Positions 1-14,470 of a stretch of DNA of 14,657 bases are shown here, one piece after another. The notes beneath the pieces were generated by a model. That model ran no database searches, was not told where the DNA came from, and saw only the letters and a list, made by a program, of their open reading frames with translations. Both the position numbers and the translations under genes were made by a program. The stretch comes from Paracoccaceae bacterium. GTDB lineage: Bacteria; Pseudomonadota; Alphaproteobacteria; Rhodobacterales; Rhodobacteraceae. Where the stretch lies: the NCBI GenBank assembly GCA_007119835.1, contig SKOX01000334.1, positions 1-14,657 on the forward strand, in the 5' to 3' direction. Numbering within the stretch: the stretch's first letter is position 1; each line of letters starts with the position of its first letter.

Positions 1-260
1 AGGTCGGCCGGCGCTGCTTCGCGGTGCGTGACGTAGGTGCCGCTGCCGCGTCTGGTTTTCACGATACCCTCGCGCTCCAGCCGGGCGAGCGCCTCGCGGA
101 CCGTCCCGCGCGAGACCGCGTAATGTTCGGCGAGGCGCCGCTCGCTCGGCAGCGCGTCCTGGTGGCTCAGGCCGCCGCCCATAATCTCGCGGCGCAGGAG
201 CGAGGCGATGTCAGCGGAGCCGAGGCGGCCGGACGCCGCCGAGGGAAGATTTCGGTGCAT
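1..260 (-). CDS. GntR-family transcriptional regulator, N-terminal part (cut by window edge)
   Basis: Reading leftward from an ATG at 260-258 gives 86 open codons running off the window start. The visible residues form the GntR winged-helix domain at about residues 17-78: an initial helix (ASLLRREI), then DALPSERRLAEHYAVSR with the recognition helix GTVREALARLEREG, then the wing TRRGSGTYVTH. This is the standard GntR fingerprint. The effector domain that would tell FadR, HutC or MocR subfamilies apart lies outside the window. The gene is divergent from the amine operon with a gap of about 144 bp, the usual position for a local regulator. It has no clear Shine-Dalgarno sequence, and a promoter candidate sits so close to the ATG that the message may be leaderless. 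Family assignment is sure; the target genes are inferred. Confidence 0.9.
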   Translation of the reverse strand, partial: MHRNLPSAASGRLGSADIASLLRREIMGGGLSHQDALPSERRLAEHYAVSRGTVREALARLEREGIVKTRRGSGTYVTHREAAPAD

Positions 261-318: not shown

Positions 319-404
319 AAAAGGTTGCAACGAATCGCCGCAACGGTGAGACTTCGCAGTGGTGCACGGCCGCGAGGGCCGAAGGCGCAGCAAGGGAGAT
401 GCTC

Positions 405-1748
405 GTGACGTTTCCTGCCCAAGCGGAATTCCTGGTGATCGGCGCCGGCATCCACGGGCTCTCGGCGGCATGGCGGCTGGCAGAACGCCTGCACGAGCGG
501 GGCGAGCCGGTCGAGGGCCGGGTCGTGGTCGTGGACAAGGACGGCATCGCGGCGGGCGCCTCGGGCATCGCCTGCGGCGTGGTGCGCAACAACTACTTCC
601 AGCCGGCGATGCGGCGGCTGATGGCGCATTCGGTCGGGGTGTGGGAGAGCGACCCCGAGACCTTCGCCTACCATCCGGTAGGCTACATGCAGATCTCGCC
701 CGAGGCGATGCACGCGGACGTGGCCCAGATCTACCGCGAGCAGCGCGAGATCGGCTACGACAGCGTCTTCATCGAGGGCGGGCAGGACTGCACCCGCTAC
801 ATGCGCCGGATGTTCTCGGACTGGCAGGCGCAGGGCATCACGTCGGTCCTGCACGAGAAGCGCGGCGGCTACGCCAACAACACCAAGTCGATCTACGGGC
901 TGGCGAAGAAGGCCGAGGATCTCGGCGTCAGGATCCTCACCGGCGCGAGGGTCACCGGCTTCGTGCGGGAGCATGGCTCGCCGGCGGTGCGCGCCGTGGA
1001 GACGGATCGCGGCACGATCCGCTGCGACCATGTGATCGTCGGCGCCGGGCCTTGGGTGCGCGACTTCTGGACCATGCTGGATCTGCCGAAGGCGGTCGAC
1101 ATCAAGGTGGGCGAGAACGAGTTTCACCGCGACGTGCCGATGTGGCGCTTCTGGCAGCTCGAGGAGGGCGTCCTTCAGGTGCCGCCCGAGACGCTGCTGA
1201 CCGATGACGGCGAGATGCCGCCGGTGCTGCACGTCGACTCGGACGCGCCGCTCATCTCCGACGTCGACGGCTCGCTGATCACCGAGGAAATGTGGGGCAT
1301 CTACTACAAGCCCGACTGGCACTTCAACGGCGTGCAGGGCGGCGCCTCGCCCTACAAGGTCGAGAAGGACGCGGACGCGGTCGAGATCGACCCCTACGGG
1401 CCCGCGAGCCCCGAGTTCGTCTCGAGCGACAAGTTCGCGCACATGTGGGTCTCGGCGCTCGCCCACTGCCACAAGCGGTTCGAGGGCACGATGCCGAAGT
1501 ACCACCGCGAGCCGTCGGGCGGGATCGGCTGCTTCACGCCGGACAGCTTCCCGGTGTTCGACCGCTTCCACGAGAACGTATGGGTGATCGCCGACAGCAA
1601 CCACGGCTACAAGATGCTGGGCGTCGGGCGCCTCGTCGCCGACGAGGTGATGAGCGAGCCCCAGGAGCTGCTCGAGCCCTTCCGGTTCGACCGCTACGCC
1701 AGGGGTGAACTGCACCCGACCTCGCACAGCCCCTTCCCGTGGAGCTGA
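405..1748 (+). CDS. DAO-family FAD-dependent oxidoreductase (SoxB-like amine oxidase/dehydrogenase)
   Basis: A protein of 447 aa with an N-terminal Rossmann dinucleotide motif (FLVIGAGIHGLSAAW, GxGxxG at residues 13-18), the GASGIACGVVRNNYF segment typical of sarcosine-oxidase-beta-like enzymes, and a DAO C-terminal FAD segment (TPDSFPVFDRF ... SNHGYKMLGVGRL). The family oxidises secondary or tertiary amines and N-methyl amino acids; the substrate here is unknown. The reading frame stays open back to position 24, but that part overlaps the divergent gntR gene and is not family sequence. I prefer GTG at 405 because GGGAG (394-398) lies 6 nt upstream; ATG at 399 touches the Shine-Dalgarno directly. 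It is the first gene of the operon, 40 nt before the ligase gene. Being next to the ligase and GlxBCD genes suggests it oxidises a methylated or gamma-glutamylated amine. It could stand in for N-methylglutamate dehydrogenase, but that is inference. Confidence 0.88.
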   Translation: MTFPAQAEFLVIGAGIHGLSAAWRLAERLHERGEPVEGRVVVVDKDGIAAGASGIACGVVRNNYFQPAMRRLMAHSVGVWESDPETFAYHPVGYMQISPEAMHADVAQIYREQREIGYDSVFIEGGQDCTRYMRRMFSDWQAQGITSVLHEKRGGYANNTKSIYGLAKKAEDLGVRILTGARVTGFVREHGSPAVRAVETDRGTIRCDHVIVGAGPWVRDFWTMLDLPKAVDIKVGENEFHRDVPMWRFWQLEEGVLQVPPETLLTDDGEMPPVLHVDSDAPLISDVDGSLITEEMWGIYYKPDWHFNGVQGGASPYKVEKDADAVEIDPYGPASPEFVSSDKFAHMWVSALAHCHKRFEGTMPKYHREPSGGIGCFTPDSFPVFDRFHENVWVIADSNHGYKMLGVGRLVADEVMSEPQELLEPFRFDRYARGELHPTSHSPFPWS

Positions 1749-1788
1749 AGCGCAGGCGCATAACAAGACAGAAGGGAGGACAACGCGA

Positions 1789-3270
1789 ATGCATGGCACG
1801 CTGAGCACGGACCTCGAGCGGTTTGTGAATGCCGACGGGCGGGCGGATCTGGTCCACGAGATCCGCCACAAGATCGACACGCTGGGGGTGGAGTACCTCT
1901 ATCTGCAGTTCGTGTCGGTGACGGGGCGCATTTGCGGCAAGGGCATCCCGGCCGACCACTGGGAGTCAATGGCCGAGCGCGGGTTCCAGCTGGTCTACGG
2001 CGCGGCCGTGAACCTCTTCCTCAACCGCCACGGCCAGTACATGGGCTACGGACCGGAGGCGGCCGAGCTCGTCGGCATTCCCGAGCCGGAGACCTTCTGC
2101 GTCCTGCCCTGGGACAAGCGCGTGGCGCGGGTGTGGTGCACCCTCTTCCGCAACCGCGAGGAGCGTGAGAACCCCGGCGGGTTCCTGACGTCGGACAGCC
2201 GCGGCAACCTGCGCCGGATCCACGACGAGTTCCAGAAGAAGCACGGCCTGCATCTGCGGTGCGGCACCGAGCCCGAGATGATGTGGCTGAAGAAGGACGA
2301 CCTCGGCAATCCCGCCGGCGGATTCTCCAACCCCTACTGCTACCATATCGACCAGTTCGAGAGCCTGCGGCCGGTCTACATGAAGGTGGTCGAGTATTCC
2401 CGCGCGATGGGCCTCGACATCATCCAGGGCGACCACGAGGACGCGCCGGGCCAGCTCGAGATCAACTTCACCTACGACGACTGCCTCAGGAACGCCGACC
2501 GGCTGACCACCTACCGCCAGATCTGCGCCCAGGTCGCGCGCGAGTTCAACCTGATCGCCTGCTTCATGACCAAGCCGTTCATGGGCGTCTCGGCGAGCGG
2601 CTGCCACCACAACCTCTCGCTCTGGCGCGGCGGCGAGGATCACCAGAAGAAGCTCGGGCAGGAGACCCGGCGGGCGATGGACGAGGTGTTCACCTACCGC
2701 AAGGGCGGCGAGAACACCTTCATGCCCGACGGCGACGACCCGCAGATGCCTGGCGAGATCGGCCGCTACGCGATCGGCGGCATCGTGAAGAACCTCGACG
2801 CGCTGACCGCGATCGGCTGCTCGACGGTGAACTCGTACCGGCGGCTGTGGGACACCGGCTTCTGGGCGCCGGTGTTCAAGGACTGGGGCTTCCAGAACCG
2901 CACCACCGGGCTCAGGGTCTCGGCGCCCGGTCGCTTCGAGTTCCGCTCGGTCGACTCGATGGTCAACGCCTACCTGATGGCCTCGGGGCTTCTGAAGGCG
3001 ATGGACGACGGCATCACCAACAAGATCGACTGTGGCAAGCCCGAGGAGCGCAACATCTACGCCGCCATGGACGCCGGCAAGCAGGTCGAGAAGCTGCCGA
3101 TGTCGCTCGGCGACGCGCTGAAGGCGCTCGAGGCCAACGAGGTGATCCGCGCGGCGATGCCTGGCGAGATGTACCGCCTCTACCACGAGTACAAGACCGA
3201 CGAATGGGAGCGGTTCATGCACACCACCACCGACTGGGACGTGAAGACCTACCTCGACTACCTGCCCTGA
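1789..3270 (+). CDS. glnT: Glutamine-synthetase-family ligase (GlnT/GMAS-like gamma-glutamyl amide synthetase)
   Basis: A protein of 493 aa that keeps the glutamine synthetase catalytic motifs in order: metal-binding GTEPE (residues 159-163), HEDAPGQLE (216-224), SGCHHN (270-275, the nucleotide/glutamate-binding His region), NSYRRL (348-353) and the C-terminal RFEFRSVDS arginine motif (382-390). It should therefore be an active ATP-dependent ligase. It lacks the Tyr-adenylylation region of GSI and, as I remember the family, is longer than the ~440-aa GMAS of methylotrophs. The start ATG is preceded by GAAGGGAGGA (1771-1780) at 8 nt, the strongest Shine-Dalgarno in the window. With GlxBCD directly downstream and TMA genes nearby, the likely reaction is glutamate plus an amine (methylamine or ammonia) plus ATP to a gamma-glutamyl amide. 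Assignment to the family is firm; GMAS versus plain GS type III is open. Confidence 0.9.
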   Translation: MHGTLSTDLERFVNADGRADLVHEIRHKIDTLGVEYLYLQFVSVTGRICGKGIPADHWESMAERGFQLVYGAAVNLFLNRHGQYMGYGPEAAELVGIPEPETFCVLPWDKRVARVWCTLFRNREERENPGGFLTSDSRGNLRRIHDEFQKKHGLHLRCGTEPEMMWLKKDDLGNPAGGFSNPYCYHIDQFESLRPVYMKVVEYSRAMGLDIIQGDHEDAPGQLEINFTYDDCLRNADRLTTYRQICAQVAREFNLIACFMTKPFMGVSASGCHHNLSLWRGGEDHQKKLGQETRRAMDEVFTYRKGGENTFMPDGDDPQMPGEIGRYAIGGIVKNLDALTAIGCSTVNSYRRLWDTGFWAPVFKDWGFQNRTTGLRVSAPGRFEFRSVDSMVNAYLMASGLLKAMDDGITNKIDCGKPEERNIYAAMDAGKQVEKLPMSLGDALKALEANEVIRAAMPGEMYRLYHEYKTDEWERFMHTTTDWDVKTYLDYLP

Positions 3271-3293
3271 GCCGCGAGGAGAGAGTAAAGAGC

Positions 3294-4229
3294 ATGTGCG
3301 GGATTGCAGGCATCATCCACCGCGGCAAGATGTCGAACGTGGGCGGCGAGATGACCAGAATGCTGCGGGCGCTGAAGCACCGGGGGCCGGACTCGACCGG
3401 CCTCGCGGTCTACGGCCCGCCGCATCCGGGCGACTACGTGATGCGGCTCAAGGTGGCCGAGCACGAGGACATCGACCGTGGCCGCGGCATCAAGGAGCGC
3501 ATAAAGGAGCGCGTCGAACGCGTCGAGCGGATCCTCGAGGAGCACGGCGTGCAGATCCACTCGAAGGAGTTCGCAACGCCCTATGCGCTGCGCTACGTCC
3601 TCCGGCACGAGGGCGACAAGGAAGCGATCGCCAGGGCGATCGAGGAGGTCGACGGGGTGGAGATCCTGTCGCTCGGCAACAATCTCGAGCTCATCAAGGA
3701 TCTCGGCGACGCGATCGTGGTGGCGGACGCCTACAAGCTCCACGAGTTCGAGGGGACGCATGCGATCGGCCACACGAGGATGGCGACGGAGTCCGACGTC
3801 GACATCCGCTCGGCGCATCCCTACTGGGCGTTTCCCTACAACGACGTCTCGGTCGTCCATAACGGGCAGATCACCAACTACTGGCTCATGCGCCGGGAGA
3901 TGGAGCGGAAGGGGCACCGCTTCATGTCGAACTGCGACAGCGAGCTGCTCGCGGTCTACACCGCGCACAACCTCGCGGGTGGCATGACGCTCGAGGAGAG
4001 CCTGCGCCAGTCGATCGGCGAGATCGACGGCGTGTTCACCTACCTCGTGGCGACCCGCGACCAGCTCGGCATGGCCAAGGACACGATGGCCGCGAAGCCG
4101 CTCGTCCTCTACGAGAGCGACGACCTGATCGCGCTCGCATCCGAAGAGGTCGCGATCCGAGCCATCCTGCCCCAGGAGATCGACACCTACGACCCCTACG
4201 ATGAGGAGATCCGTGTATGGCAAGTGTGA
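3294..4229 (+). CDS. glxB: Class II glutamine amidotransferase subunit, GlxB/MgsA-like
   Basis: A protein of 311 aa starting MCGIAG, so that Cys2 becomes the N-terminal nucleophile after Met removal. The Ntn-hydrolase signatures follow: KHRGPDSTG (about 28-36), GHTRMATES (159-167), HNGQITNY (189-196) and a DSELLAVY segment. The first two motifs are far apart because a charged helical insert of about 80 residues (roughly 58-140) lies between them. Such proteins release the gamma-amide nitrogen of glutamine, or the methylamine of gamma-glutamylmethylamide in N-methylglutamate synthase, for use by the FMN subunit. GAGGAGAG (3276-3283) precedes the ATG, 23 nt after the ligase stop. The 3' end overlaps the next gene by 13 nt, which suggests translational coupling and a complex with GlxC and GlxD. 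Confidence 0.9.
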   Translation: MCGIAGIIHRGKMSNVGGEMTRMLRALKHRGPDSTGLAVYGPPHPGDYVMRLKVAEHEDIDRGRGIKERIKERVERVERILEEHGVQIHSKEFATPYALRYVLRHEGDKEAIARAIEEVDGVEILSLGNNLELIKDLGDAIVVADAYKLHEFEGTHAIGHTRMATESDVDIRSAHPYWAFPYNDVSVVHNGQITNYWLMRREMERKGHRFMSNCDSELLAVYTAHNLAGGMTLEESLRQSIGEIDGVFTYLVATRDQLGMAKDTMAAKPLVLYESDDLIALASEEVAIRAILPQEIDTYDPYDEEIRVWQV

Positions 4230-5086
4230 GTGACGCCCGCCTGCGGGAGATGGCGCAGGAGGAGCGCGCCCACGCGCTCGGCATGACCACCGAGCAGCTC
4301 ACCGGCCGCTCGATGTTCATCGAGTTCGACCCGGAGGCCGAGGAACGGTTCACCTATCCCTGGGCGCCCGAGGTCGACTTCAACAAGCGCACCGAGTTCG
4401 ACTCCTCCGAGATGTCCTCGACCGAGGTCAACCAGGAGATCCGCCGGCTGATGGCAGAGGGCTTCGGGACGATCGTGATCCAGAACCCGCGCGGCAAGCA
4501 TTCGGTCGGGGTCGGCATCCTGAGCCGGCTCAACCTGATCGTCGAGGGCAGCCTCGGCTACTTCGCCACCGGCCTGATCGACGGACCGAACGTGCGGATC
4601 AACGGCCGCGTCGGCTGGTCCTGCGGCGAGAACATGATGTCGGGCACCATCGTCGTGGCGAAGAACGCCGGTTCCACCTTTGGCGCGGCGCTGCGCGGCG
4701 GCGACCTCGTCTGCATGGGCTCGGTCGGGTCGCGCACGGGCATCGACATGAAGGGCGGCACGATCATCGTCGGCGGCGACACCGGCGCCTTCTCCGGCTT
4801 CATGATGCAGCGCGGCCGGATGATCGTCTGCGGCAACGCCGGCAAGAACCTCGGCGACTCGATGTACGACGGCACGATCTACGTCGGCGGCGAGATCCGT
4901 GAGCTGGGTGTCGACGCGGTGCCGGCGGAGCTGAACGATCTCGATCGGGCGTGGCTGAGGCGCAAGCTCATCCAGTACGGCCTCCTGCCCGAGCGGGGCG
5001 TCGACCATTTCACCAAGATCGTCGCGGGCAAGCAGCTCTGGAACTACGACAACCTGGAGCCCAGCGAGAAGAAGCTCATCCTCTGA
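4217..5086 (+). CDS. glxC: GXGXG-domain glutamate-synthase-like subunit, GlxC/MgsB-like
   Basis: A protein of 289 aa. Residues ~100-235 form the right-handed beta-helix of the glutamate synthase alpha C-terminal (GXGXG) domain, with regularly spaced glycine repeats such as SGTIVVAKNAGSTFGAALRG, KGGTIIVGGDTGAFSGFMM and DGTIYVGGEIRELG. The first ~65 residues are an acidic, helical extension outside that domain. In glutamate synthase the domain is structural and organises the ammonia path between the amidotransferase and FMN sites; a free-standing copy is characteristic of Glx/Mgs systems. The ATG at 4217 has GAGGAG (4203-4208) 8 nt upstream, inside the end of glxB. The next gene starts 10 nt after the stop. 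Confidence 0.9.
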   Translation: MASVSDARLREMAQEERAHALGMTTEQLTGRSMFIEFDPEAEERFTYPWAPEVDFNKRTEFDSSEMSSTEVNQEIRRLMAEGFGTIVIQNPRGKHSVGVGILSRLNLIVEGSLGYFATGLIDGPNVRINGRVGWSCGENMMSGTIVVAKNAGSTFGAALRGGDLVCMGSVGSRTGIDMKGGTIIVGGDTGAFSGFMMQRGRMIVCGNAGKNLGDSMYDGTIYVGGEIRELGVDAVPAELNDLDRAWLRRKLIQYGLLPERGVDHFTKIVAGKQLWNYDNLEPSEKKLIL

Positions 5087-5096
5087 AGGAACCACC

Positions 5097-6470
5097 ATGC
5101 CTGATGGAGACATCAAGACGAAGAAGCCGCTCGCCCGCGACCCGTACCGGCTCGGTAACTCCTTCGTCTTCCCGCCGCACGTCATCGACGACATCCACAT
5201 CAAGGCGGAGCTCGGCCGCTACCGCATGCGGGGCATGTCGCTGTTCAAGAAGATCCCACACTGGGACGACCTGACGTTCCTGCCCGGCACGTTGACCCGC
5301 TTCGTCATCGAGGGCTACCGTGAGAAGTGCGAGACTAGGACCGTCATCGGCCCGCGTGCGAAGCGGCCGATCGAGCTCGACATCCCGGTCTATATCACCG
5401 GCATGAGCTTCGGCGCGCTCTCGTACGAGGCGAAGACCGCGCTCGCCCGCGGCGCAACCATGGCCGGCACCGCCACCTGTTCCGGCGAGGGTGGCATGAT
5501 CCCGGACGAGCGGCGCTACTCGTCGAAGTGGTTCTACCAGTGCATCCAGTCGCGCTACGGCTTCAACCCGCACCATCTGGTGCTGGCCGACGGCTGCGAG
5601 TTCTTCATCGGCCAAGGCTGCAAGGTGGGCTTGGGCGGGCACCTGATGGGCCAGAAGGTCACCGACCAGGTCGCCGAGATGCGGAGCCTGCCCGCCGGCA
5701 TCGACCAGCGCTCGCCGGCGCGGCACCCGGACTGGCTCGGCCCCGACGACCTCGCGCTCAAGATCAACGAGATCCGCGAGGCGACCGACTGGCAGATCCC
5801 GATCCAGCTGAAGCTCGGCGCCGCCCGGGTCTACGACGACGTGCGGATGGCGGTGAAGTGCGACCCGGACTCGATCTACATTGACGGCATGGAAGGCTCG
5901 ACCGGCGCCGGCCCGCACCTCGCGACGGAGGACACCGGCGTGCCGGGCATCGCCGCGATCCGGCAGGCGCGGCGGGCGATCGACGACCTCGGCAAGCGGG
6001 GCGAGATCACGCTGATCTACGCCGGCGGCATCCGCAATGGCGCGGACGTGGCGAAGGCGATGGCGCTCGGCGCCGACGCGATCGCGATCGGCCATTCCGC
6101 GATGATGGCCTTGAACTGCAACAAGGACATCCCGGAGTCGAACTACCCCGAGGAGATCGGCGTCGAACCGGGCCACTGCTATCACTGCCACACCGGGCGC
6201 TGCCCGGTCGGCGTCGCGACGCAGGACCCGAAGCTCCGGGCGCGGCTCGATCCCGACGCGGCGGCGGAGCGGGTCTACAACTTCCTGCACACGCTGACGA
6301 TCGAGGCGCAGCTCTTCGCTCGGGCCTGCGGCAAGACCAACATCCACAGCCTGGAACCGGAAGACCTCGCGGCGCTGACGATGGAGGCTTCCGCCATGGC
6401 CGCCGTGCCGCTCGCGGGCACCGACTACACCGTGGGCGTTCCCGACTACCATCACCTTGGAGACGACTGA
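5097..6470 (+). CDS. glxD: FMN-binding glutamate-synthase-like subunit, GlxD/MgsC-like
   Basis: A protein of 457 aa with the FMN-binding TIM barrel of glutamate synthase: ITGMSFGALSYEAKTALARG near residue 100, the SIYIDGMEGSTGAGP loop, and the phosphate-binding IYAGGIRNGADVAKAMALGA segment. A cysteine cluster CYHCHTGRCPVGVATQ at 361-376 (Cys361, 364, 369) resembles the [3Fe-4S]-associated region of GltB. It is the synthase core; with GlxB and GlxC it would join nitrogen or methylamine to 2-oxoglutarate. Known relatives include MgsC of N-methylglutamate synthase and rhizobial GlxD, and sequence alone cannot separate the two roles. The Shine-Dalgarno AAGGA lies 6 nt before the ATG. Confidence 0.9.
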   Translation: MPDGDIKTKKPLARDPYRLGNSFVFPPHVIDDIHIKAELGRYRMRGMSLFKKIPHWDDLTFLPGTLTRFVIEGYREKCETRTVIGPRAKRPIELDIPVYITGMSFGALSYEAKTALARGATMAGTATCSGEGGMIPDERRYSSKWFYQCIQSRYGFNPHHLVLADGCEFFIGQGCKVGLGGHLMGQKVTDQVAEMRSLPAGIDQRSPARHPDWLGPDDLALKINEIREATDWQIPIQLKLGAARVYDDVRMAVKCDPDSIYIDGMEGSTGAGPHLATEDTGVPGIAAIRQARRAIDDLGKRGEITLIYAGGIRNGADVAKAMALGADAIAIGHSAMMALNCNKDIPESNYPEEIGVEPGHCYHCHTGRCPVGVATQDPKLRARLDPDAAAERVYNFLHTLTIEAQLFARACGKTNIHSLEPEDLAALTMEASAMAAVPLAGTDYTVGVPDYHHLGDD

Positions 6471-6471
6471 C

Positions 6472-6885
6472 ATGGCCGGCACCCAGTACCGCGGCTCCGA
6501 GATCAAGGACGTCGATCAGTTCATCAAGGACGCGCAGGGTCTCGAATCCGAGCGCGAGCGCGAGATCGGCCAGCACATCGGCTACCGCTACGACGTCAAC
6601 CTGGTGCCGGACTACGCGCGCCTGACGCCGTTCCTGCGGAAGTACATGGAGGTGATGGGCTGGGACGACCTCAACTGGCTCGAGGACGTCCACATGGGCT
6701 ACGAAGAGGGCCACGCCGCCGTCTTCGACCGCAACGCCAACGGCTGGATCCGGGTGCCGGACTCGATCGCGCTGCCCGACAACCAGCAGGACCGCGACAT
6801 GATCGCCCGCGAGCTCCTGATAAAGTTCCAGATGTCGGACCGGCACCCGCTGGTTTCGCTCCGCAAGGCATACATGAAGTTCTGA
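6472..6885 (+). CDS. Conserved-looking 137-aa protein of unknown function, coupled to glxD
   Basis: I do not recognise this protein. It is a soluble, charged, cysteine-free chain with no signal peptide or membrane segment. It has an N-terminal helical stretch rich in Glu/Arg (QGLESEREREIGQ), an aromatic middle (MGWDDLNWLEDVHMGYEEGH) and a basic end (LVSLRKAYMKF). ATG at 6472 is preferred: GGAG (6459-6462) is 9 nt upstream and glxD stops one base before. A TTG at 6457 in the same frame would add five residues that overlap glxD. The next gene begins one base after its stop, so translation is probably coupled on both sides. The position suggests an extra subunit or regulator of the Glx complex, which is inference from context. 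Confidence 0.8.
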   Translation: MAGTQYRGSEIKDVDQFIKDAQGLESEREREIGQHIGYRYDVNLVPDYARLTPFLRKYMEVMGWDDLNWLEDVHMGYEEGHAAVFDRNANGWIRVPDSIALPDNQQDRDMIARELLIKFQMSDRHPLVSLRKAYMKF

Positions 6886-6886
6886 C

Positions 6887-7729
6887 ATGACCAGCGCCGT
6901 CGCCTGCCTGCAGACGCCCGTCCGAGCCGACATGGCCTCGGCGCTCTCCGTGGCGCTCGACCAGGCGCGGGAGGCGGTGGCGCGGGGGGCGCGTCTCCTC
7001 GCGCTGCCGGAGTACTGCGGCGGCCTCGTCTCGGAGGGCGGCATGGTCGCGCCGCCCGCCGCGCCCGAGGCCGAACATCCGGTTCTGGAGGGCTTGCGCG
7101 ACTTCGCGGCGGGGGCGGGCGTCTGGCTCGCGATCGGCTCAGTCGCGGTCAGCGACGGTGCGGGCAAGACGCTGAACCGCGGCTACGTGATCGACGCCGG
7201 CGGCGGCATCGTCAGCAGCTACGACAAGATCCATCTCTTCGACATCCAGCTCTCGCTCACGGAGGTCTACCGCGAGAGCGGCCGGATCACCGGCGGCGCG
7301 GAGGCTGTGGTGGTCGACACGCCCTTCGGCCGCCTCGGCCAGACGATCTGCTACGACCTGCGCTTCCCGCAGCTCCACCGGGCGCTGGCGCAGGCCGGCG
7401 CCGAGATCATCGTTAGCGCTGCGGCCTTCCTGAGGAAGACCGGCGAGGCGCACTGGCACGTGCTGAACCGCGCCCGCGCCATCGAGAACGGCGCCTTCGT
7501 GCTCGCCCCCTGCGCCATCGGGCCGGTGCCGGGCGGCGGTGAGAGCTACGGCCATTCGCTGATCGTCGATCCCTGGGGCCGAGTGCTCGCCGACGGCGGC
7601 GCGGCGCCGGGCATTGTGACGGTCCGGATCGACCGGGCAGCCGTCGCGGAGGCCCGCGCGCGGATCCCGAGCCTCGGCCACGACCGGCCGTTCGACGTGC
7701 GGGTCGTGCCGGCCGCGGTGCCGGCATGA
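6887..7729 (+). CDS. Carbon-nitrogen hydrolase (nitrilase superfamily, Nit/omega-amidase-like)
   Basis: A protein of 280 aa with the full Glu-Lys-Cys triad of the nitrilase superfamily: Glu42 in LALPEYCGG, Lys114 in SYDKIHLFD, and Cys155 in QTICYDLRFP. Length and motifs fit the Nit1/Nit2 branch (amidases acting on keto-acid or gamma-amides such as 2-oxoglutaramate or deaminated glutathione) rather than true nitrilases. It is cytosolic with no signal peptide. Sitting in an operon with a gamma-glutamyl ligase and two amine oxidases, it may hydrolyse an amide intermediate, playing the role PuuD has in putrescine breakdown. That is inference. Its stop overlaps the next start as ATGA (7726-7729). 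Confidence 0.9.
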   Translation: MTSAVACLQTPVRADMASALSVALDQAREAVARGARLLALPEYCGGLVSEGGMVAPPAAPEAEHPVLEGLRDFAAGAGVWLAIGSVAVSDGAGKTLNRGYVIDAGGGIVSSYDKIHLFDIQLSLTEVYRESGRITGGAEAVVVDTPFGRLGQTICYDLRFPQLHRALAQAGAEIIVSAAAFLRKTGEAHWHVLNRARAIENGAFVLAPCAIGPVPGGGESYGHSLIVDPWGRVLADGGAAPGIVTVRIDRAAVAEARARIPSLGHDRPFDVRVVPAAVPA

Positions 7730-8295
7730 GCGCGGTGCAGCACGAGCGGGCCGCGCACCCGCTGCGCGACCGCTTCCTGCGCTGGCAGTGCCGCGTCCGC
7801 CAGATTGCCATGCGCGAGAAGGGCGGCCGGCCCGACGAGGCCGTGACGCCTGCCCTGACGCTGCCGGGCGAGGGCGCGCCGATGGGCCACGTCATCACCG
7901 TCCTGAACAAGAGCTGGGCCTACTCGCGGACGCCGGAGATCCAGCACATCGTGCGCGCCACCAACGATCCGGCGCAGCGACGGGAAAAGGGCCTGCGGCT
8001 GCTGTCGGAAATGTACTACCAGCGGCACGACGAGTTTTCCGAGACGCTGACAGCCACCTTTCCGCCCGGTTCGCCCGGGGCGAACCGGATCGCCGCAGCG
8101 GGCCGCTGCCGGCTTGCCTTCGAGGCCTATTCGCAGCGCTTCGACCTCGACTGCGCCGTGCGGCGGCTCGAGCCGAAGCACCCGCTCTACCAGGCGACCT
8201 GGTGGCACAATCTGCTCTTCAACCCGGACCTTGCCGCCGGTACCGTGGTCCTCGGCTTCACCCCGGACTGGCCCGCCAGCAGCGCAGACCCATGA
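7726..8295 (+). CDS. Unrecognised 189-aa protein overlapping tdm
   Basis: I do not recognise a domain. The protein is soluble and rich in Arg, Tyr and Trp, with only two cysteines. It has a Leu/Pro segment (ALTLPGEGAPMGHVITVLNK), a charged helical middle, and an aromatic C-terminal stretch (YQATWWHNLLFNPDL). It begins in an ATGA overlap with the hydrolase and ends in an ATGA overlap (8292-8295) with the tdm-like gene. Both its start and the next gene's start are therefore likely reached by ribosome re-initiation. The 4-nt coupling to Tdm suggests a partner or accessory factor made in fixed ratio with it. Reading frame and GC-rich codon pattern look like those of the neighbours. Confidence 0.82.
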   Translation: MSAVQHERAAHPLRDRFLRWQCRVRQIAMREKGGRPDEAVTPALTLPGEGAPMGHVITVLNKSWAYSRTPEIQHIVRATNDPAQRREKGLRLLSEMYYQRHDEFSETLTATFPPGSPGANRIAAAGRCRLAFEAYSQRFDLDCAVRRLEPKHPLYQATWWHNLLFNPDLAAGTVVLGFTPDWPASSADP

Positions 8296-10661
8296 CCGTC
8301 CACCCCGTCTTCGAAACCCCCTACGAGCGCCGCGGCGTCCTCGTCCCCGGCCTGCCGATCCTGCCCCACGGCATCGAGCGCCACCCGATCCCCGGCGGCG
8401 GCTCGCGCGCGGTGAGGATCGAGGCGGGCGACGAGATCACGCTGCTCGACCGCGAGGGGCTGCAGCCGGTCGAGCTCGTCTTCTTCGCGCCCGACGGCAG
8501 CTCGGACGCCGGGATGATCGGACTGAGGGGTCGGCAGGACTTCGCCGGGCTGAAGGCCGCGCTGACCTCCGATGCGTCCGGGCGCGCGGTCATGAAGGCA
8601 CTCGACGCGGCGGGATTCAACCTTGCCCGCGCCGACGCCGCCCGCGTCTTCGCCGACGGCTCGCGCGCCGGCGACATGGTGACGACTCATGCCGCGCGGG
8701 ATGGTCTGCTGATCGCCTGCGCGGCGGGCGGGCCAATGGCGCCCGACGCGCAGGACGCGCCGACCGAGGTCGTCCTCTACATCCGACGCGCCAATCCCGG
8801 CCCGGAGAAGGGCGGGCACCCCCCCCCGCCGCCCCTCGCTGAGCCTCTTGCCGACATCAACATCCTGCCCGGCGAGGCGAAGTCCTACGAGGTCCGCCGC
8901 GGCCAATTCATCCAGATCCTCGACGTCCAGGGCCGCGAGTGCTCCGACTTCCAGGCGTTCTCGCTGCGCGCACTCGACGCCGGGCTCGAGCGGGAAATCG
9001 ACCCGACCACGACCCGCTCGCTAATGGGCTCCCTCTACCCCGCACCTGGGATCTACTCGAAGTACTTCTCGGTCGATCACGAGCCGCTCGTGGAGATCGT
9101 CCAGGACACCTGCGGCCGGCACGACACCTTCGGGCTCGCCTGCACGGCGCGCTACTACGAGGATCTCGGCTACCCGGGCCACGTAAACTGCTCGGACAAC
9201 ATCAATGCCGACCTCGCGCGCTACCGGGTGCGGCCGCGCGGTGGGTGGCCGGCGATCAACTTCTTCTTCAACACGATGCTGGATGCGCAGAACGCCATCG
9301 GCATGGACGACCCGTGGTCGCGGCCGGGCGACTACGTGCTCCTGCGCGCGCTCACCGACCTCGTCGCCGTGTCGACCGCCTGCCCCTGCGACGTCGACCC
9401 GGCAAACGGCTGGAACCCGACCGACATCCAGGTCCGCACCTACGGCGCGGCCGAGACATTCCCCCGCTCCATCGGCTGGCGCAGGACCCCGGAGGGTGAC
9501 GTGCAGCACACCAGGCAGACCGGCTTCCACGACCGCTTCGCGCGGCTCACCCGCGACTTCACCGAGTATAACGGCTACTGGCTGCCGAAGCAGTTCACCG
9601 GCCTCGGACCGATCGCGGAATACTGGGCCTGCCGCGAGAAGGCCGCGATCATGGACCTCTCGCCGCTCCGCAAGGTCGAGGTGACCGGCCCGGACGCCGA
9701 GGCGCTGATGCAGCTCTGCGTCACGCGCGACATGAAGAAGCTTTCGACCGGTCAGGTGGTCTATACCGCCATGTGCTACGAGCACGGCGGCATGATCGAC
9801 GACGGGACGGTGTTCCGCCTCGGCGAGAACAACTTCCGCTGGATCGGCGGCACCGATGCCTCCGGCGCCTGGCTGCGCGAGCAGGCGTCGAGCCACGGGC
9901 TGAACGCCTGGGTCCGCGCCTCGACCGACCAGCTCTGCAACGTCGCGGTCCAGGGCCCGCGCTCGCGCGAGATCCTCGCCGCGGTGGTCTGGACGCCCGA
10001 CACCCAGCCCACCATCGCCGAACTCGGCTGGTTCCACTTCGCGATCGGCCGGATCGGCGGCTTCCACGGGCCGGCGGTCGTCGTCAGCCGGACCGGCTAT
10101 TCGGGCGAGCTCGGCTACGAAGTCTTCTGCCATCCCAAGGACGCGGGCGAGGTCTTCGACGCGATCTGGGCCGCGGGTGCGCCCAACGGGCTCGCGCCCC
10201 TCGGCCTCTCCGCCCTCGACATGCTGCGGATCGAGGCGGGGCTGATCTTCGCGGGCTACGAGTTCTCCGACCGCACCGACCCGTTCGAGGCCGGCATCGG
10301 CTTTGCGGTGCCGCTCAAGTCCAAGAACGATGACTTCATCGGCCGTGCCGCCCTCGAGGAGCGAAAGGCGCATCCGCAGCGCCGGCTCGTAGGTCTGGAC
10401 ATCGAGGGCGGCGTCGTGCCGGTGACCGGCGACTGCATCCGCATCGGACGTGCGCAGGTCGGTGAGGTCACCTCCGCCGTCAAGTCGCCCATCCTCGGGC
10501 GCGTCATCGCACTCGCCCGCCTCGACGTGCCCCATGCCGAGCCGGGCACGGCGGTGGAGGTCGGCCAGCTCGACGGCCTGCAGAAGCGGCTCAAGGCGAC
10601 CGTCACGACCTTCCCCCACTTCGACCCGAAGAAGGAGCGGGTGAAGGGCAACTACGCGTGA
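8292..10661 (+). CDS. tdm: DUF1989-GcvT fusion, probable trimethylamine N-oxide demethylase (Tdm)
   Basis: A protein of 789 aa with three parts. Residues 1-175 are a divergent DUF1989-like half. A proline linker (P177-P181) follows. Residues ~185-375 are DUF1989 proper, with GRECSDF (Cys217, Asp219), CGRHDTFGLAC (Cys274, His277, Cys284) and ACPCDVDP (Cys364, Cys366). From ~424 to the end is a GcvT/aminomethyltransferase domain with the conserved GGMIDDGT motif (Asp503, Asp504) and a C-terminal barrel. Known Tdm enzymes pair a metal-binding DUF1989 catalytic domain, with a three-cysteine zinc site, with a folate-binding GcvT domain. They convert TMAO to dimethylamine plus a C1 unit passed to THF. 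Domain order, length and the tmm gene in the same locus support this. A run of nine C (8819-8827) encodes part of the linker. A related DUF1989-GcvT demethylase with another substrate is the main alternative. Confidence 0.85.
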   Translation: MTVHPVFETPYERRGVLVPGLPILPHGIERHPIPGGGSRAVRIEAGDEITLLDREGLQPVELVFFAPDGSSDAGMIGLRGRQDFAGLKAALTSDASGRAVMKALDAAGFNLARADAARVFADGSRAGDMVTTHAARDGLLIACAAGGPMAPDAQDAPTEVVLYIRRANPGPEKGGHPPPPPLAEPLADINILPGEAKSYEVRRGQFIQILDVQGRECSDFQAFSLRALDAGLEREIDPTTTRSLMGSLYPAPGIYSKYFSVDHEPLVEIVQDTCGRHDTFGLACTARYYEDLGYPGHVNCSDNINADLARYRVRPRGGWPAINFFFNTMLDAQNAIGMDDPWSRPGDYVLLRALTDLVAVSTACPCDVDPANGWNPTDIQVRTYGAAETFPRSIGWRRTPEGDVQHTRQTGFHDRFARLTRDFTEYNGYWLPKQFTGLGPIAEYWACREKAAIMDLSPLRKVEVTGPDAEALMQLCVTRDMKKLSTGQVVYTAMCYEHGGMIDDGTVFRLGENNFRWIGGTDASGAWLREQASSHGLNAWVRASTDQLCNVAVQGPRSREILAAVVWTPDTQPTIAELGWFHFAIGRIGGFHGPAVVVSRTGYSGELGYEVFCHPKDAGEVFDAIWAAGAPNGLAPLGLSALDMLRIEAGLIFAGYEFSDRTDPFEAGIGFAVPLKSKNDDFIGRAALEERKAHPQRRLVGLDIEGGVVPVTGDCIRIGRAQVGEVTSAVKSPILGRVIALARLDVPHAEPGTAVEVGQLDGLQKRLKATVTTFPHFDPKKERVKGNYA

Positions 10662-11995
10662 GCCTCTTCGTCGCCGGGGCGGCGCCCGGTCGCCCCTACT
10701 GGTGGGACGCCGCTCGGCCCGAGCAGGCGCTCCCCGAGTCGCTCCCCGAGCGCGCCGACCTGCTCGTGATCGGCGCGGGCTATACCGGCCTCTCGGCGGC
10801 GCTGACCGCCGCCGACGCCGGCGCCTCGGTGGTCGTCGTCGACGCCGGACGCCCCGGCGCCGGGGCCTCGAGCCGCAACGGCGGCATGTTTGGCGCCCAT
10901 CCCCGCCTGCCGTTCGAGACCGTCGCCGACCGCTTCGGCCGTGGCGTCGCCGCGGGCATCTACGCCGAGGCGTCAGAAGCCTTCGCCTTCACCCGCGGAC
11001 TTATCGAGCGTGAGGGGATCGACTGCGACTTCCGGGTGACCGGCCGCATCCAGCTCGCCTGGACCCGCGACCATTTCGAGGCTCAGAAGCGCCTCGTCGC
11101 CGCCGTCACCGCCATCGCCCCCATCACGATGGAGATCGTCGAGCGGGCCGATCTTGGCGCCGAGATCGCGACGGACCGCTATTTCGGCGCAATCCGCTTC
11201 CCGGACCACGCCGCGCTCGACCCGGGCAGGTTCCACGACGGCCTGCTCCGCGCCGTCCTCCGCCGCGGCGTGCCGGTGGTCGGCGACAGTCCGGTCACCG
11301 CGCTGGAGCGGCGCACCAGCGGCTACGTCGCCACTGCCGGCCGACATCGGATAATGGCCGAGAGCGTGATCCTCGCGACGAACGGCTACACGCAGGGGCC
11401 GTTCGGCTGGGCGCGCCGCCGCGTATTCCCGCTGCCGTCCTACGTCATCGCGACCGAGCCGCTCGATCCTGACCGCCTGCGCGCGCTTGCCCCCGGCGGC
11501 CGGATGATGGTCGAGACCCGTGCCCGCCACTCCTATTACCGGCTCTCGCCCGACGGCCGCCGCATCCTGTTCGGCGGACGTGCCGCGATGGTGCCGATCG
11601 CGGCCGAGGCCGCCGCCCGGCGGCTGCACGCCACGATGACCGAGGTCTGGCCGAGCCTTGCGGACGTGCGCCTCAGCCACAGCTGGTCGGGCTTCACCGG
11701 CTACAGCTTCGGCCATCTGCCCCACGTGGGCGCGCACGAGGGCATCCACTACGCGCTCGGCTATTCCGGCTCGGGCACGGCGCTCGCGCCCTATCTCGGC
11801 ATGAAGGCGGCCTGGCAGGCGCTCGGCGACGCCCGCGGCCGCACCGCCTATGCGCGCACCACCCTCGCCACGCGGGCCTTCCACCCGACCGGCCGGCCCT
11901 GGTTCCTGAGCCTTGCCGATCGCTGGTATCGCCACGCCGTCGATCCGCGAGAGAACGCCGCGGCCGAACGCGATCGCCGCGCCGCCGCCGGCTGA
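10658..11995 (+). CDS. PuuB/OrdL-like FAD-dependent oxidoreductase
   Basis: A protein of 445 aa starting at GTG inside a GTGA overlap with tdm. It begins with the RPYWWDAARP-type leader common to PuuB/OrdL enzymes, then the Rossmann motif DLLVIGAGYTGLSAA (G39, G41, G44) and GASSRNGGMFGAHP. The second FAD-contact segment is SVILATNGYTQ and the C-terminal part is WSGFTGYSFGHLPHVG. The family includes gamma-glutamylputrescine oxidase and other amine oxidases, so a gamma-glutamylated or N-alkyl amine is a reasonable substrate guess. It belongs to the same DAO superfamily as the first operon gene but a different branch. It is the last gene of the run and ends 14 bp from the convergent tmm gene. 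Confidence 0.88.
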   Translation: MSLFVAGAAPGRPYWWDAARPEQALPESLPERADLLVIGAGYTGLSAALTAADAGASVVVVDAGRPGAGASSRNGGMFGAHPRLPFETVADRFGRGVAAGIYAEASEAFAFTRGLIEREGIDCDFRVTGRIQLAWTRDHFEAQKRLVAAVTAIAPITMEIVERADLGAEIATDRYFGAIRFPDHAALDPGRFHDGLLRAVLRRGVPVVGDSPVTALERRTSGYVATAGRHRIMAESVILATNGYTQGPFGWARRRVFPLPSYVIATEPLDPDRLRALAPGGRMMVETRARHSYYRLSPDGRRILFGGRAAMVPIAAEAAARRLHATMTEVWPSLADVRLSHSWSGFTGYSFGHLPHVGAHEGIHYALGYSGSGTALAPYLGMKAAWQALGDARGRTAYARTTLATRAFHPTGRPWFLSLADRWYRHAVDPRENAAAERDRRAAAG

Positions 11996-12000
11996 GGCCG

Positions 12001-12026
12001 CCTGCGCCGCTATTCCGCAGCGCAGG
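12001..12026. terminator. Stem-loop between convergent operon and tmm, possible bidirectional terminator
   Basis: Arms 12001-12010 and 12017-12026 pair at 9 of 10 positions around a 6-nt loop (TATTCC), and the stem includes the tmm stop codon. There is no T-tract on either side, so it does not meet the strict definition of an intrinsic terminator. Its place in the 14-bp convergent gap makes a role in ending or protecting both transcripts plausible. Confidence 0.4.
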
Positions 12027-13368
12027 GTGGGGTCTGCAGGTAGCTCTCGAGCGAGTCGTCCATCGCCTCGACCCACGGCGTGTGGTGCTTGGGCGCCAGC
12101 GTGCCGGTCATCGGGGAAACGTAAGCGTTATCGCGGAAGCCCATGATGCTCGCCTTCTTGTGCTTCTTCCACTGGAAGAAGGCCTCGTTCGCAGCATCGA
12201 CGTCGAAGCTCGGATAGTCGGTCTCGGCGATGAGCTCGCGCACGTAGTCGCCCTGGTAGCGGATCGGGGCATAATCGTCCTCGAGTGCGTCCTCCCGCGC
12301 AACCCGCTCGGCGACGTCGGCATCCATGGCCGCACGGTCGGGCAGCGCGATCCGGTCCATGATGATGTCGCGGACGTACCACGCCTGTGCGTCAAACATG
12401 TTGAAGGTGTACCACTGGTCCTGCATGCCGAGGTAGAAGAGCCGCGGGTTCTTCACCCACACGACGCCCTTGTAGAGGTCGGCGGTTGCCAGCCGGTTCG
12501 CGGTGCGCAGCCGCAGGGAGTCCTCCATGAACGGGAAGTGGTGGAGATAACCACAGCAGAGAATGATCGCGTCGACCTTGGCCGTCGAGCCGTCCTTGAA
12601 GATCGCGAGGTTGCCCTCGACCTTCTGGAGCAGCGGCACCTCGCGCCAGTTGTCGGGCCAGGCGAAGCCCATCGGCTGAGTGCGGTGGCTGACGGTCACC
12701 GATCGGCAGCCGTACTTCCAGCACTGCGAGCCGATATCCTCGGCCGAGTAGCTCGTGCCGATGATCAGGATGTCCATGTCCTTGAACTCGAGCGCGTCGC
12801 GAAAATCGTGCGCATGCAGGATCCGTCCCGGGAAGTCCTGAAAACCGGGAAACTCCGGCACCCGCGGCGTCGAGAAATGCCCCGATGCGCAGATGACGTG
12901 GTCGTAGAGTTCCTCGCTGTCGCGGTCGGCCTTGAGGTCGGTCGCGACGACCCTGAACTTCTCCTGGTCGGCCAGATATTCCACCCGCCGGACGGGCGTG
13001 CGAAAGCGGATCAGGTCGCGGATGCCGGCCTTCTTGACCCGCCCCTCGATGTAGTCGAACAGCACGGCGCGCGGCGGGTATGATGCGATCTGCCGGCCGA
13101 AATGCTCCTCGAAGGTGTAATCGGCGAACTCCAGACCCTCCTTCGGCCCGTTCGACCAGAGGTAGCGGTACATCGAGTTGTGCACTGGCTCGCCGTACTC
13201 GTCCGTCCCGGTCCGCCATGTATAGTTCCACAGGCCGCCCCAGTTCTCCTGCTTCTCGTAGCAGATGATCTCCGGGATCTCCTCGCCCTTCTGCGCCGCC
13301 GACTGGAAGGCCCGAAGCTGCGCGAGCCCCGATGGCCCGGCACCGATGATGGCGATCCTTTTGGACAT
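12010..13368 (-). CDS. tmm: Trimethylamine monooxygenase (bacterial FMO)
   Basis: A protein of 452 aa that closely matches the bacterial FMO family oxidising trimethylamine to TMAO with FAD, NADPH and O2. It shows the FAD Rossmann motif [15 protein letters not shown] (G9, G11, G14), [12 protein letters not shown] (41-52), the FMO signature [11 protein letters not shown] (179-189, FxGxxxHxxxF) and the NADPH site [12 protein letters not shown] (202-213). Tyr207 in that site matches, by position and setting, the active-site Tyr of the Methylophaga enzyme as I remember it. The length is what the family usually shows. ATG at 13368 has GGAGG 7 nt upstream. It is transcribed against the operon from its own promoter region and feeds TMAO to the tdm product. 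Other amines and sulfides can also be substrates of this family. Confidence 0.93.
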
Positions 13369-13583: not shown

Positions 13584-14470
13584 TCAGGCCGTCAGCCCCT
13601 CGGGCTCGGGCAGGCCGTTGGCGCGGCAGCAGGCGGTCAGAGTATTGGCGAGAAGACAGGCGATCGTCATCGGCCCCACGCCGCCCGGTACCGGCGTGAT
13701 CGCGCCGGCGACTGCGGCCGCGCTTGCGAACTGCACGTCGCCGACGAGGCGCGTCTTTCCCTCTGGCTCGACCCTGTTGATGCCGACGTCGATCACGACC
13801 GCGCCCGGCTTGACGTAGTCCCCCGTTACCATCTCCGGGCGACCCACCGCAGCCACCAGAACGTCGGCGCGGCGGCAGAGTGCGGGCAGATCCCGCGTGC
13901 GCGAGTGGGCGACCGTGACCGTCGCGCTGTCGCGCAGGAGCAGCTGGGCGATCGGCTTGCCGACGATGTTCGAGCGCCCGATCACAACCGCATCCGCCCA
14001 GCGAGCGAGCCGAGGCGGTTGCGCAGGAGCATCAGGCAGCCGAGCGGCGTGCAGGGCACCATCGCCTTCTGCCCGGTCGCCAACCGCCCGACGTTCGAAA
14101 CGTGAAAGCCGTCGACGTCCTTGGCGGGATCGAGCGCGTTGATGACAAGATCGTCGTCGAGATGCCTCGGCAGCGGAAGCTGCACCAGGATCCCGTGCAC
14201 CTTCTGATCCGCGTTCAGCCGCTCGATGAGCCCCAGCAGCTCGGCCTCCGAGACAGTGGCCGCGAGCCGGTGCTCCTGCGAATGCATCCCCGCCTCGGCG
14301 GTCTGACGCCCCTTGTTGCGGACGTAGACCTGGCTCGCCGGGTCCTCGCCGACCAGCACAACCGCAAGGCCGGGTGTGAGCCCGTTCGTGTCCTTCAGCC
14401 GCGCCACGCGCGCGCCGACCTCGCCGCGGATGCGGGCGGCGCAGGCCTTGCCGTCGATAATGTCGGCCAT
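13584..14470 (-). pseudogene. folD: folD, methylene-THF dehydrogenase/cyclohydrolase, with a one-base frameshift
   Basis: FolD oxidises 5,10-methylene-THF to methenyl-THF with NADP+ and hydrolyses it to 10-formyl-THF, and would take the C1 unit released by Tdm. From ATG 14470 the first frame gives a normal N-terminal domain ([15 protein letters not shown] with catalytic Lys53, [28 protein letters not shown]), then hits a stop at 13982-13984 after [10 protein letters not shown]. The next frame resumes exactly where expected with (D)[13 protein letters not shown], through [18 protein letters not shown] to a stop at 13584. Restoring one base near 13994-13999 gives 296 codons including stop, the usual FolD length. 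All other motifs are intact, so the lesion is recent or a sequencing error. The start overlaps the fhs stop (TGATG). Confidence 0.9.

Follow-up and report, generated by a model that had tools for sequence, protein, structure and literature searches.

How does a bacterium that turns trimethylamine (TMA) and trimethylamine N-oxide (TMAO) into dimethylamine (DMA) use this product, when the locus encoding those steps holds no dimethylamine monooxygenase (Dmm)? The question is raised by contig SKOX01000334.1 (assembly GCA_007119835.1, Paracoccaceae bacterium), which we analyzed over its whole length of 14,657 nucleotides (hereafter, the window). An earlier note, made from the letters alone, had described at one locus a trimethylamine monooxygenase (Tmm), a TMAO demethylase-like protein (Tdm), a glutamine synthetase (GS)-family ligase, three Glx subunits, two DAO-superfamily oxidases and a nitrilase-type amidase, with neither dmm nor mgd genes. 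Model scans recovered all of these proteins, Tmm and Tdm above their curated cut-offs, and found no dmm or mgd genes among the scanned window proteins. The inventory had overlooked two open reading frames (ORF), here called sF and hH, of which sF belongs to the conserved core. We consider it probable, judging from sequence, that this is a TMA/TMAO operon in which a cassette (DAO1, GS2, GlxBCD and sF) replaces dimethylamine monooxygenase, through a DMA route resembling the coupled action of GS and glutamate synthase (GS/GOGAT). The genes on which this reading is built are:

399..1748 (start at 399 or 405), + strand: DAO1, single-chain flavin adenine dinucleotide (FAD) oxidase of a highly conserved family, cassette core; family models and SoxB-type Arg63 and Lys405.
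1789..3270, + strand: GS2, candidate GmaS-like gamma-glutamyl alkylamine ligase, distinct from GmaS, cassette core; models, amine-pocket residues and a conserved motif.
3294..4229, + strand: GlxB, class II glutamine amidotransferase subunit with an N-terminal Cys, cassette core; models and MCG motif.
4217..5086 (start at 4217, ATG, or 4226, GTG), + strand: GlxC, GXGXG subunit, cassette core; Pfam.
5097..6470, + strand: GlxD, flavin mononucleotide (FMN) glutamate-synthase-like subunit with CxxCx4C, cassette core; models and motif.
6472..6885, + strand: sF, small conserved protein, cassette core; no Pfam or NCBIfam match.
8292..10661, + strand: Tdm, trimethylamine N-oxide demethylase with DUF1989 and GcvT domains; NF053776, 1223 bits against a cut-off of 1100; closest solved chains named TMAO demethylase (PDB 9q59).
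12010..13368, − strand: Tmm, trimethylamine monooxygenase; NF058570, 824 bits against 675; closest solved chains flavin monooxygenase/Tmm (PDB 5ipy, 2xve).

Ten genes run on the + strand with intergenic gaps of −13 to +40 bp, in the order DAO1, GS2, GlxB, GlxC, GlxD, sF, nitrilase, hH, Tdm and a second oxidase, DAO2. On the − strand, tmm faces the operon and folD comes after it; at the left edge, the gene of a GntR-type regulator points away from the operon.

Gene content, conservation of the cassette, its replacement pattern, its active-site signatures and its genetic linkage were observed directly, and two genome samples were used. For the first, species-representative genomes were scanned with a DAO1 alignment, and the best 80 of at least 595 confirmed stretches were kept. 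GS2 lay in the surrounding stretch of 44 of these 80 DAO1 loci (not counting L091, where GS2 is partial), and the 38 loci out of the 44 with GS2 above 700 bits and GlxD above 800 bits were counted as cassettes. The second sample came from 385 genomes of the window's class, which we take to be Alphaproteobacteria, with at most four GS2 and two Tdm candidates scored per genome: among the GS2 neighbourhoods of the 38 GS2-positive genomes besides the host's, 35 had GS2 with GlxBCD. Left out of this count were G430, where the contig ends, and G502 and G608, with GS2-like proteins (62–63% identity) and no GlxBCD. The two samples share at least two genomes, at identical coordinates (L079 is G224 and G402; L107 is G238 and G400). 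An order-level survey for DAO1, of limited sensitivity with at most eight candidates scored per genome, found it in at least 3 of 196 genomes at E ≤ 1e-60.

DAO1, GS2, GlxBCD and sF recur together as a conserved cassette in Pelagibacteraceae (SAR11) and other alphaproteobacteria as well as in gammaproteobacteria; the titles of cassette-bearing records include Rhodobacteraceae, Ruegeria, SAR116, Pelagibacteraceae, Dongia and gammaproteobacteria. The gene for sF was present in 37 of the 38 DAO1-drawn and 32 of the 35 GS2-drawn cassettes, and all four loci without it are cut by a contig end. The corresponding counts were 32 and 19 for hH and 19 and 7 for the nitrilase, and DAO1 was found in 26 of the 35 GS2-drawn stretches. 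Tmm or Tdm occurred within the surrounding stretch of 24 of the 38 cassette loci. One Pelagibacteraceae locus (L082) carries, in order, a divergent OpuAC-type ABC transporter, Tdm, DAO1, GS2, GlxB, GlxC, GlxD, sF, a gene of the ammonium-transporter family and GmaS. Facing the Tdm-to-GmaS genes are a SoxG-type gene and a frame that bears a GcvT domain.

The pattern across genomes is one of replacement. In the class sample, GS2 was present in 39 genomes, Tdm in 35 (29 above the curated cut-off) and a DmmC orthologue (502–644 bits) in 9, and GS2 and DmmC were found together in none of the 385. Among the 29 genomes with Tdm above the cut-off, 24 carried the cassette only, 4 Dmm only, none both, and one (G495) neither, its contig ending at Tdm. 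Exclusion of the two systems within these 29 genomes gave a Fisher p of 2e-4, and Tdm above the cut-off in 24 of 36 cassette genomes versus 5 of the 349 others gave p = 1e-24, values that are not true probabilities since the genomes are related. Taking all 35 Tdm matches, Dmm was found in 0 of 26 with GS2 and in 5 of 9 without; the matches with neither system were G495 at its contig end and three (G001, G570, G581) under the Tdm cut-off. Tdm and GS2 lie at most 20 kb apart in 15 of the 26 genomes carrying both, and the dmm operons of G003, G519 and G546 have tmm, tdm or gmaS close by, like the cassette in other genomes (the G396 stretch has dmm alone). In the DAO1-drawn sample, Tdm was found in 39 of 44 cassette genomes (35 above the cut-off) and DmmC in one. 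GmaS (TIGR03105), above its cut-off in 69 of the 385 class genomes, was present in 29 of 39 GS2-positive and 9 of 9 Dmm-positive ones; since it co-occurs with both systems, neither replaces GmaS and the monomethylamine (MMA) step. The cassette thus looks like a Dmm replacement, because it and Dmm partition the Tdm-positive genomes while GmaS accompanies both.

The three Tdm-like proteins under the cut-off (G001, G570 and G581; loci L180, L182 and L183) form a group just below NF053776 (about 1020–1030 bits), in genomes without GS2 or DmmC. Scores of this size recur as second copies elsewhere and may mark a paralogue with another substrate.

We looked for the rest of the pathway in the host genome, as the earlier note had suggested. 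Because this assembly (3.12 Mb) is in 506 contigs and only 85% complete, a missing dmm is not proof of absence; no DmmC match at E ≤ 1e-10 was found in it. Contig C272 encodes a SoxB-family protein with 77–78% identity to the MgdA proteins linked to glnT on two Paracoccus plasmids, followed downstream by the start of a frame resembling a Pfam-confirmed SoxD and then by the contig end; we take these genes as mgdAB, the remainder lost in assembly. The double lack of dmm and mgd therefore describes the window and, for dmm, the genome as far as searched, but fails for mgd. Nor does the idea that MgdABCD is bypassed fit the wider data: 39 of 44 cassette genomes have SoxB/Mgd family proteins above the cut-off, 35 of the 80 DAO1 loci contain an MgdA that shares 60% or more identity with the Paracoccus sp. 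MA protein, and in 13 of the 80 DAO1 sits upstream of mgdA with no more than 10 bp between the open frames, which overlap in two cases. Contig C297 carries a canonical gmaS (TIGR03105, 611 bits), mgsB-like and GlxB-like frames, and an mgsC 78–80% identical to the glnT-adjacent mgsC of Ruegeria conchae and Paracoccus sp. MA, to which the window GlxD is 52–54% identical.

Two further candidates in the host genome were rejected. A SoxB with SoxA- and SoxG-type genes on contig C501 is a paralogue, at about 50% identity to the glnT-linked Paracoccus MgdA versus 77–78% for C272. The sole DUF3445 gene of the genome, on contig C109, has no dmmAB beside it, and the gene next to it looks by eye like parE; among the 34 class-sample genomes with a match, 25 have none above 94 bits.

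The signatures of GS2 point to an amine substrate. It scored 286.7 bits against TIGR03105 (type III/GmaS; cut-off 469.6), in two stretches, 209.8 bits against the gamma-glutamylputrescine synthetase (PuuA) model NF045547 (cut-off 650), and well under the cut-off of the GlnA model. In RhGmaS, the amine pocket comprises Tyr147, Gln175, Asp177, Glu179, Glu186, Asn188 and Lys30', the ammonia-binding Asp50' is lost (Ala48'), and the Km is 26.94 µM for MMA versus 16.07 mM for DMA, so that this enzyme is poor on DMA (PMC7948447). With these positions transferred through an alignment with the Ruegeria GmaS, all seven pocket residues were kept in 14 of 14 aligned GS2 proteins, whereas the host GlnA differs at five of the seven; the Asp50' position is Val in all 14 and Asp in GlnA, and on these grounds we rejected GS2 as a glutamine synthetase. 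The motif QGDHED(A/S)PGQxExN was found in 38 of 38 cassette GS2. Compared with GmaS, GS2 is longer (493 versus about 440 amino acids) and its pocket changes at Asn176 to Gly and Asn182 to Pro. These features mark GS2 as a putative alkylamine ligase with an altered pocket, for which we infer a preference for DMA.

Relatives of GS2 also occur in other amine-type loci. Plasmid GS proteins 52–53% identical to it, with no annotated GlxBCD nearby (L017, L018), have as neighbours a P450, a second GS and a 2Fe-2S protein in Ruegeria SCSIO 43209, and an aldehyde dehydrogenase and a gamma-glutamyl hydrolase family gene in Paracoccus TOH. On pGKT2 of Gordonia KTR9 (L020), a GS stretch that lacks annotation and shares 38% identity with GS2 continues into an FAD-dependent oxidoreductase gene flanked by two P450 genes.

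The Glx proteins and DAO1 carry signatures of their own. The GlxB of all 38 cassettes carries MCG at its N terminus and, by analogy with class II amidotransferases, is likelier than the nitrilase to cleave the amide. CxxCx4C precedes G(V/I)(A/T)TQ in GlxD of all 38 cassettes and of 34 of 35 in the GS2-drawn sample, where the exception reaches a contig end; it is lost in the canonical MgsC of the host genome, Ruegeria conchae and Paracoccus sp. MA. We take its cysteines to be Fe-S ligands, by analogy with glutamate synthase, and GlxD would by this analogy carry an Fe-S cluster and depend on an electron donor. Cassette GlxD proteins are 48–52% identical to the C297 MgsC and fall outside the canonical MgsC group (71–80%). 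A passage on N-methylglutamate (NMG) synthase reports its redox cofactor as unknown (PMC6237917).

DAO1 scored 72.8 bits against TIGR01373 (SoxB; cut-off 529), so that it falls outside the Mgd/SoxB family, and there is no SoxD, SoxA or SoxG among the window proteins. It aligns with SoxB at Arg63 and Lys405, both present in 81 of 81 DAO1 frames; in sarcosine oxidases, the SoxB-type Arg and Lys bind the carboxylate of the amino acid substrate. DAO1 thus resembles the SoxB and dimethylglycine oxidase superfamily in its FAD-binding DAO family and in these two residues, but it has neither SoxDAG genes of its own nor a GcvT domain. We propose, on sequence, that DAO1 is an N,N-dimethylglutamate (N-methyl amino acid) oxidase. 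Its position next to mgdA would be expected if its product is NMG. In two Thioglobus-type loci (L067 and L068), a Tdm-like gene and DAO1, directly before an mgdA-like gene, are found with no GS2 in the surrounding stretch; ABC transporter and FolD frames were read there by eye, and L067 also has SoxD- and SoxA-type genes afterwards and a Rieske oxygenase gene nearby.

Neither sF nor hH matched any Pfam or NCBIfam model, for sF not even at E ≤ 10 in Pfam, and the best E of sF against PDB sequences was 0.015. The sF alignment of 24 sequences has a mean column identity of 76%, with invariant stretches including GYRYDVN and LNWLED; AlphaFold gave a low-confidence model (pLDDT 66.7). The family is very common and unannotated, with at least 7996 matches at E ≤ 1e-10 (7996 of 8000 scored candidates), the 120 listed being nearly all unnamed. 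Its protein might act with GlxBCD, as a helper or as one of the subunits.

Together, the genes suggest the following course. Tmm would convert TMA to TMAO, and Tdm TMAO to DMA and a one-carbon unit, the one-carbon units presumably being handled by the folate domain of Tdm and by FolD. GS2 would then join DMA to the gamma-carboxyl of glutamate at the expense of ATP, giving γ-glutamyl-dimethylamide; GlxB would split this amide, and GlxD, with FMN and the Fe-S cluster, would reductively add the DMA to 2-oxoglutarate, so that GlxBCD yields N,N-dimethylglutamate and glutamate. DAO1 would remove one methyl to give NMG, and MgdABCD, encoded elsewhere, the final one to give glutamate, so that the DMA nitrogen would enter glutamate directly. 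The extra FAD demethylase directly before mgdA has its place here because a doubly methylated glutamate would need one.

A GS/GOGAT-like cascade is the published model of the N-methylglutamate pathway of GmaS, MgsABC and MgdABCD (PMC6237917), and the proposed route would be this GMAS/NMGS cascade fed with DMA, plus two demethylations, by DAO1 and then by Mgd. The two share a GS-family ligase, a GlxBCD-type synthase and a SoxB-superfamily demethylase; the cassette differs in the GlxD cysteines missing from the three canonical MgsC, in its additional single-chain oxidase and the new small protein sF, and in co-occurring with GmaS rather than replacing it. DmmDABC (HODM type) is like the cassette in lying beside tmm, tdm or gmaS in three genomes and in co-occurring with GmaS. 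The cassette has no subunit homologous to it, the two systems occur together in no Tdm-bearing genome examined, and the proposed cassette product would be a glutamate adduct in place of the free MMA of Dmm.

The earlier note had favoured a route on the lines of the Puu pathway, in which a glutamylated methylamine is oxidized as the amide and released by the nitrilase. Its outline survives, in that Dmm would be replaced by a route that carries an amine on glutamate and oxidizes it with a single-chain FAD enzyme, and a ligase, an FAD oxidase and a nitrilase do share one operon here, as glutamylation and FAD oxidation do in Puu. Release by the amidase fares badly: the nitrilase is present in only half of the DAO1-drawn and a fifth of the GS2-drawn cassettes whereas sF is absent at contig ends only, and because the nitrilase is not core the Puu-like reading fails. 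The PuuA score is far under its cut-off, general scans of the window proteins reported no PuuD-type hydrolase family, the cassette has GlxBCD, which sets it apart from Puu, and DAO1 has the Arg and Lys that in sarcosine oxidases bind an amino-acid carboxylate. We regard this route as very improbable. A different possibility is that the cassette forms a second, divergent N-methylglutamate pathway for MMA, with GS2 and GlxBCD as isoenzymes of GmaS and MgsABC, DAO1 as a single-chain NMG oxidase, and DMA handled by another enzyme. The GmaS amine pocket is kept in GS2, and the best argument for this reading is that canonical MgsC (71–80% identity to the C297 MgsC), present in 23 of 44 cassette genomes with one more partial, was not found in the other 20; among the seven Pelagibacteraceae-titled ones, four have the cassette GlxD only, two lack a GlxD match at E ≤ 1e-40, and one has canonical MgsC as well. 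Still, some genomes without MgsC carry GmaS beside the cassette (L030, L034, L082, L084, L087, L088), and since GmaS, canonical MgsC and SoxB/Mgd are already present in many cassette genomes, the host's included, another set for MMA would in many cases be superfluous. Such a set would not predict the exclusion of Dmm among Tdm-positive genomes either, and we consider this explanation unlikely. That the cassette serves some different secondary or N-methylated amine, or takes a wide range of amines, and stands near tmm and tdm only as a fellow nitrogen-scavenging gene set, seems to us decidedly improbable: one third of the class cassette genomes have no Tdm above the cut-off, and the sister GS proteins at 52–53% identity stand in plasmid loci of P450, aldehyde dehydrogenase and glutamine amidotransferase-type hydrolase genes, but the strong association with Tdm, the physical linkage and the complementarity to Dmm all speak against it.

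Several observations weigh against the replacement of Dmm by a DMA cassette. At the level of families (19 families, all Tdm matches) the exclusion yields only p = 0.017. The gammaproteobacterium Methylohalomonas lacus carries both the cassette and dmm, the latter on a separate contig together with mgs, gmaS and a SoxB-family gene, and has no Tdm match. In the DAO1-drawn sample, the DmmC search covered the 44 genomes with GS2 out of the 80 loci. Twelve of 36 class cassette genomes have no Tdm above the cut-off (G410 and G444 just below it) and 5 of the 44 DAO1-drawn ones no Tdm match at all, so the cassette is also used without Tdm. Where canonical MgsC is lacking, the cassette Glx proteins may serve MMA, and so both amines. 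DAO1 is the cassette member placed least tightly, because the first sample was drawn with DAO1 itself and the GS2-drawn sample has it in 26 of 35 stretches. Finally, the chemistry, that is, every substrate and product from GS2 on as well as the role of sF, is what we infer from the genes.

The DMA step has been discussed for marine bacteria. Lidbury et al. 2017 (PMC5520151) give dmmDABC as missing from SAR11 and other TMAO users, call this a bottleneck and relate it to DMA in marine aerosol. In the parts of Sun et al. 2011 (PMC3160333) that concern strain HTCC1062, glxBCD-glnT lie at SAR11_1313-1316, a "monomeric sarcosine oxidase" (SAR11_1304) adjoins an aminomethyltransferase (SAR11_1303), and the legend of the pathway figure marks unidentified enzymes by "?". 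HTCC1062 itself has no dmm. In openly licensed PMC papers, preprints not being covered, we found no account of DMA use by way of this cassette. In the genomes carrying it, the cassette is a concrete and widespread candidate for the missing DMA step of marine bacteria. More tentatively, it could amount to a "dimethylglutamate pathway", in which loading by GS2, the Fe-S GlxBCD, DAO1 and Mgd would bring the DMA nitrogen into glutamate without free monomethylamine in members of SAR11, SAR116, Rhodobacteraceae and marine gammaproteobacteria, and would fill the published DMA gap for those TMAO users that have the cassette. If true, bacteria classed as non-users of DMA are in fact able to use it, dmm-based surveys undercount DMA sinks, and the very common unannotated sF family gains a context.

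The remaining genes of the window are accessory or flanking, and an Rfam scan of the window gave no match:

6887..7729, + strand: nitrilase-type amidohydrolase (CN_hydrolase), accessory; Pfam, with Glu-Lys-Cys triad motifs read by eye.
7726..8295, + strand: hH, conserved protein, accessory; no family match.
10658..11995, + strand: DAO2, second DAO-superfamily oxidase, accessory; nearest models pipecolate and aminophosphonate oxidase, far below cut-off.
13584..14470, − strand: FolD, methylene-tetrahydrofolate dehydrogenase/cyclohydrolase, in two overlapping frames; family models.
3..260, − strand: GntR-family regulator, N-terminal part, cut at the contig edge; GntR-type models, best E 2e-17.

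The GntR-type regulator (1–260), divergent from the operon, may sense a metabolite of the pathway. The folD gene is split into frames at 13584–13985 and 13982–14470 on the − strand, reflecting a frameshift either in the gene or in the assembly.

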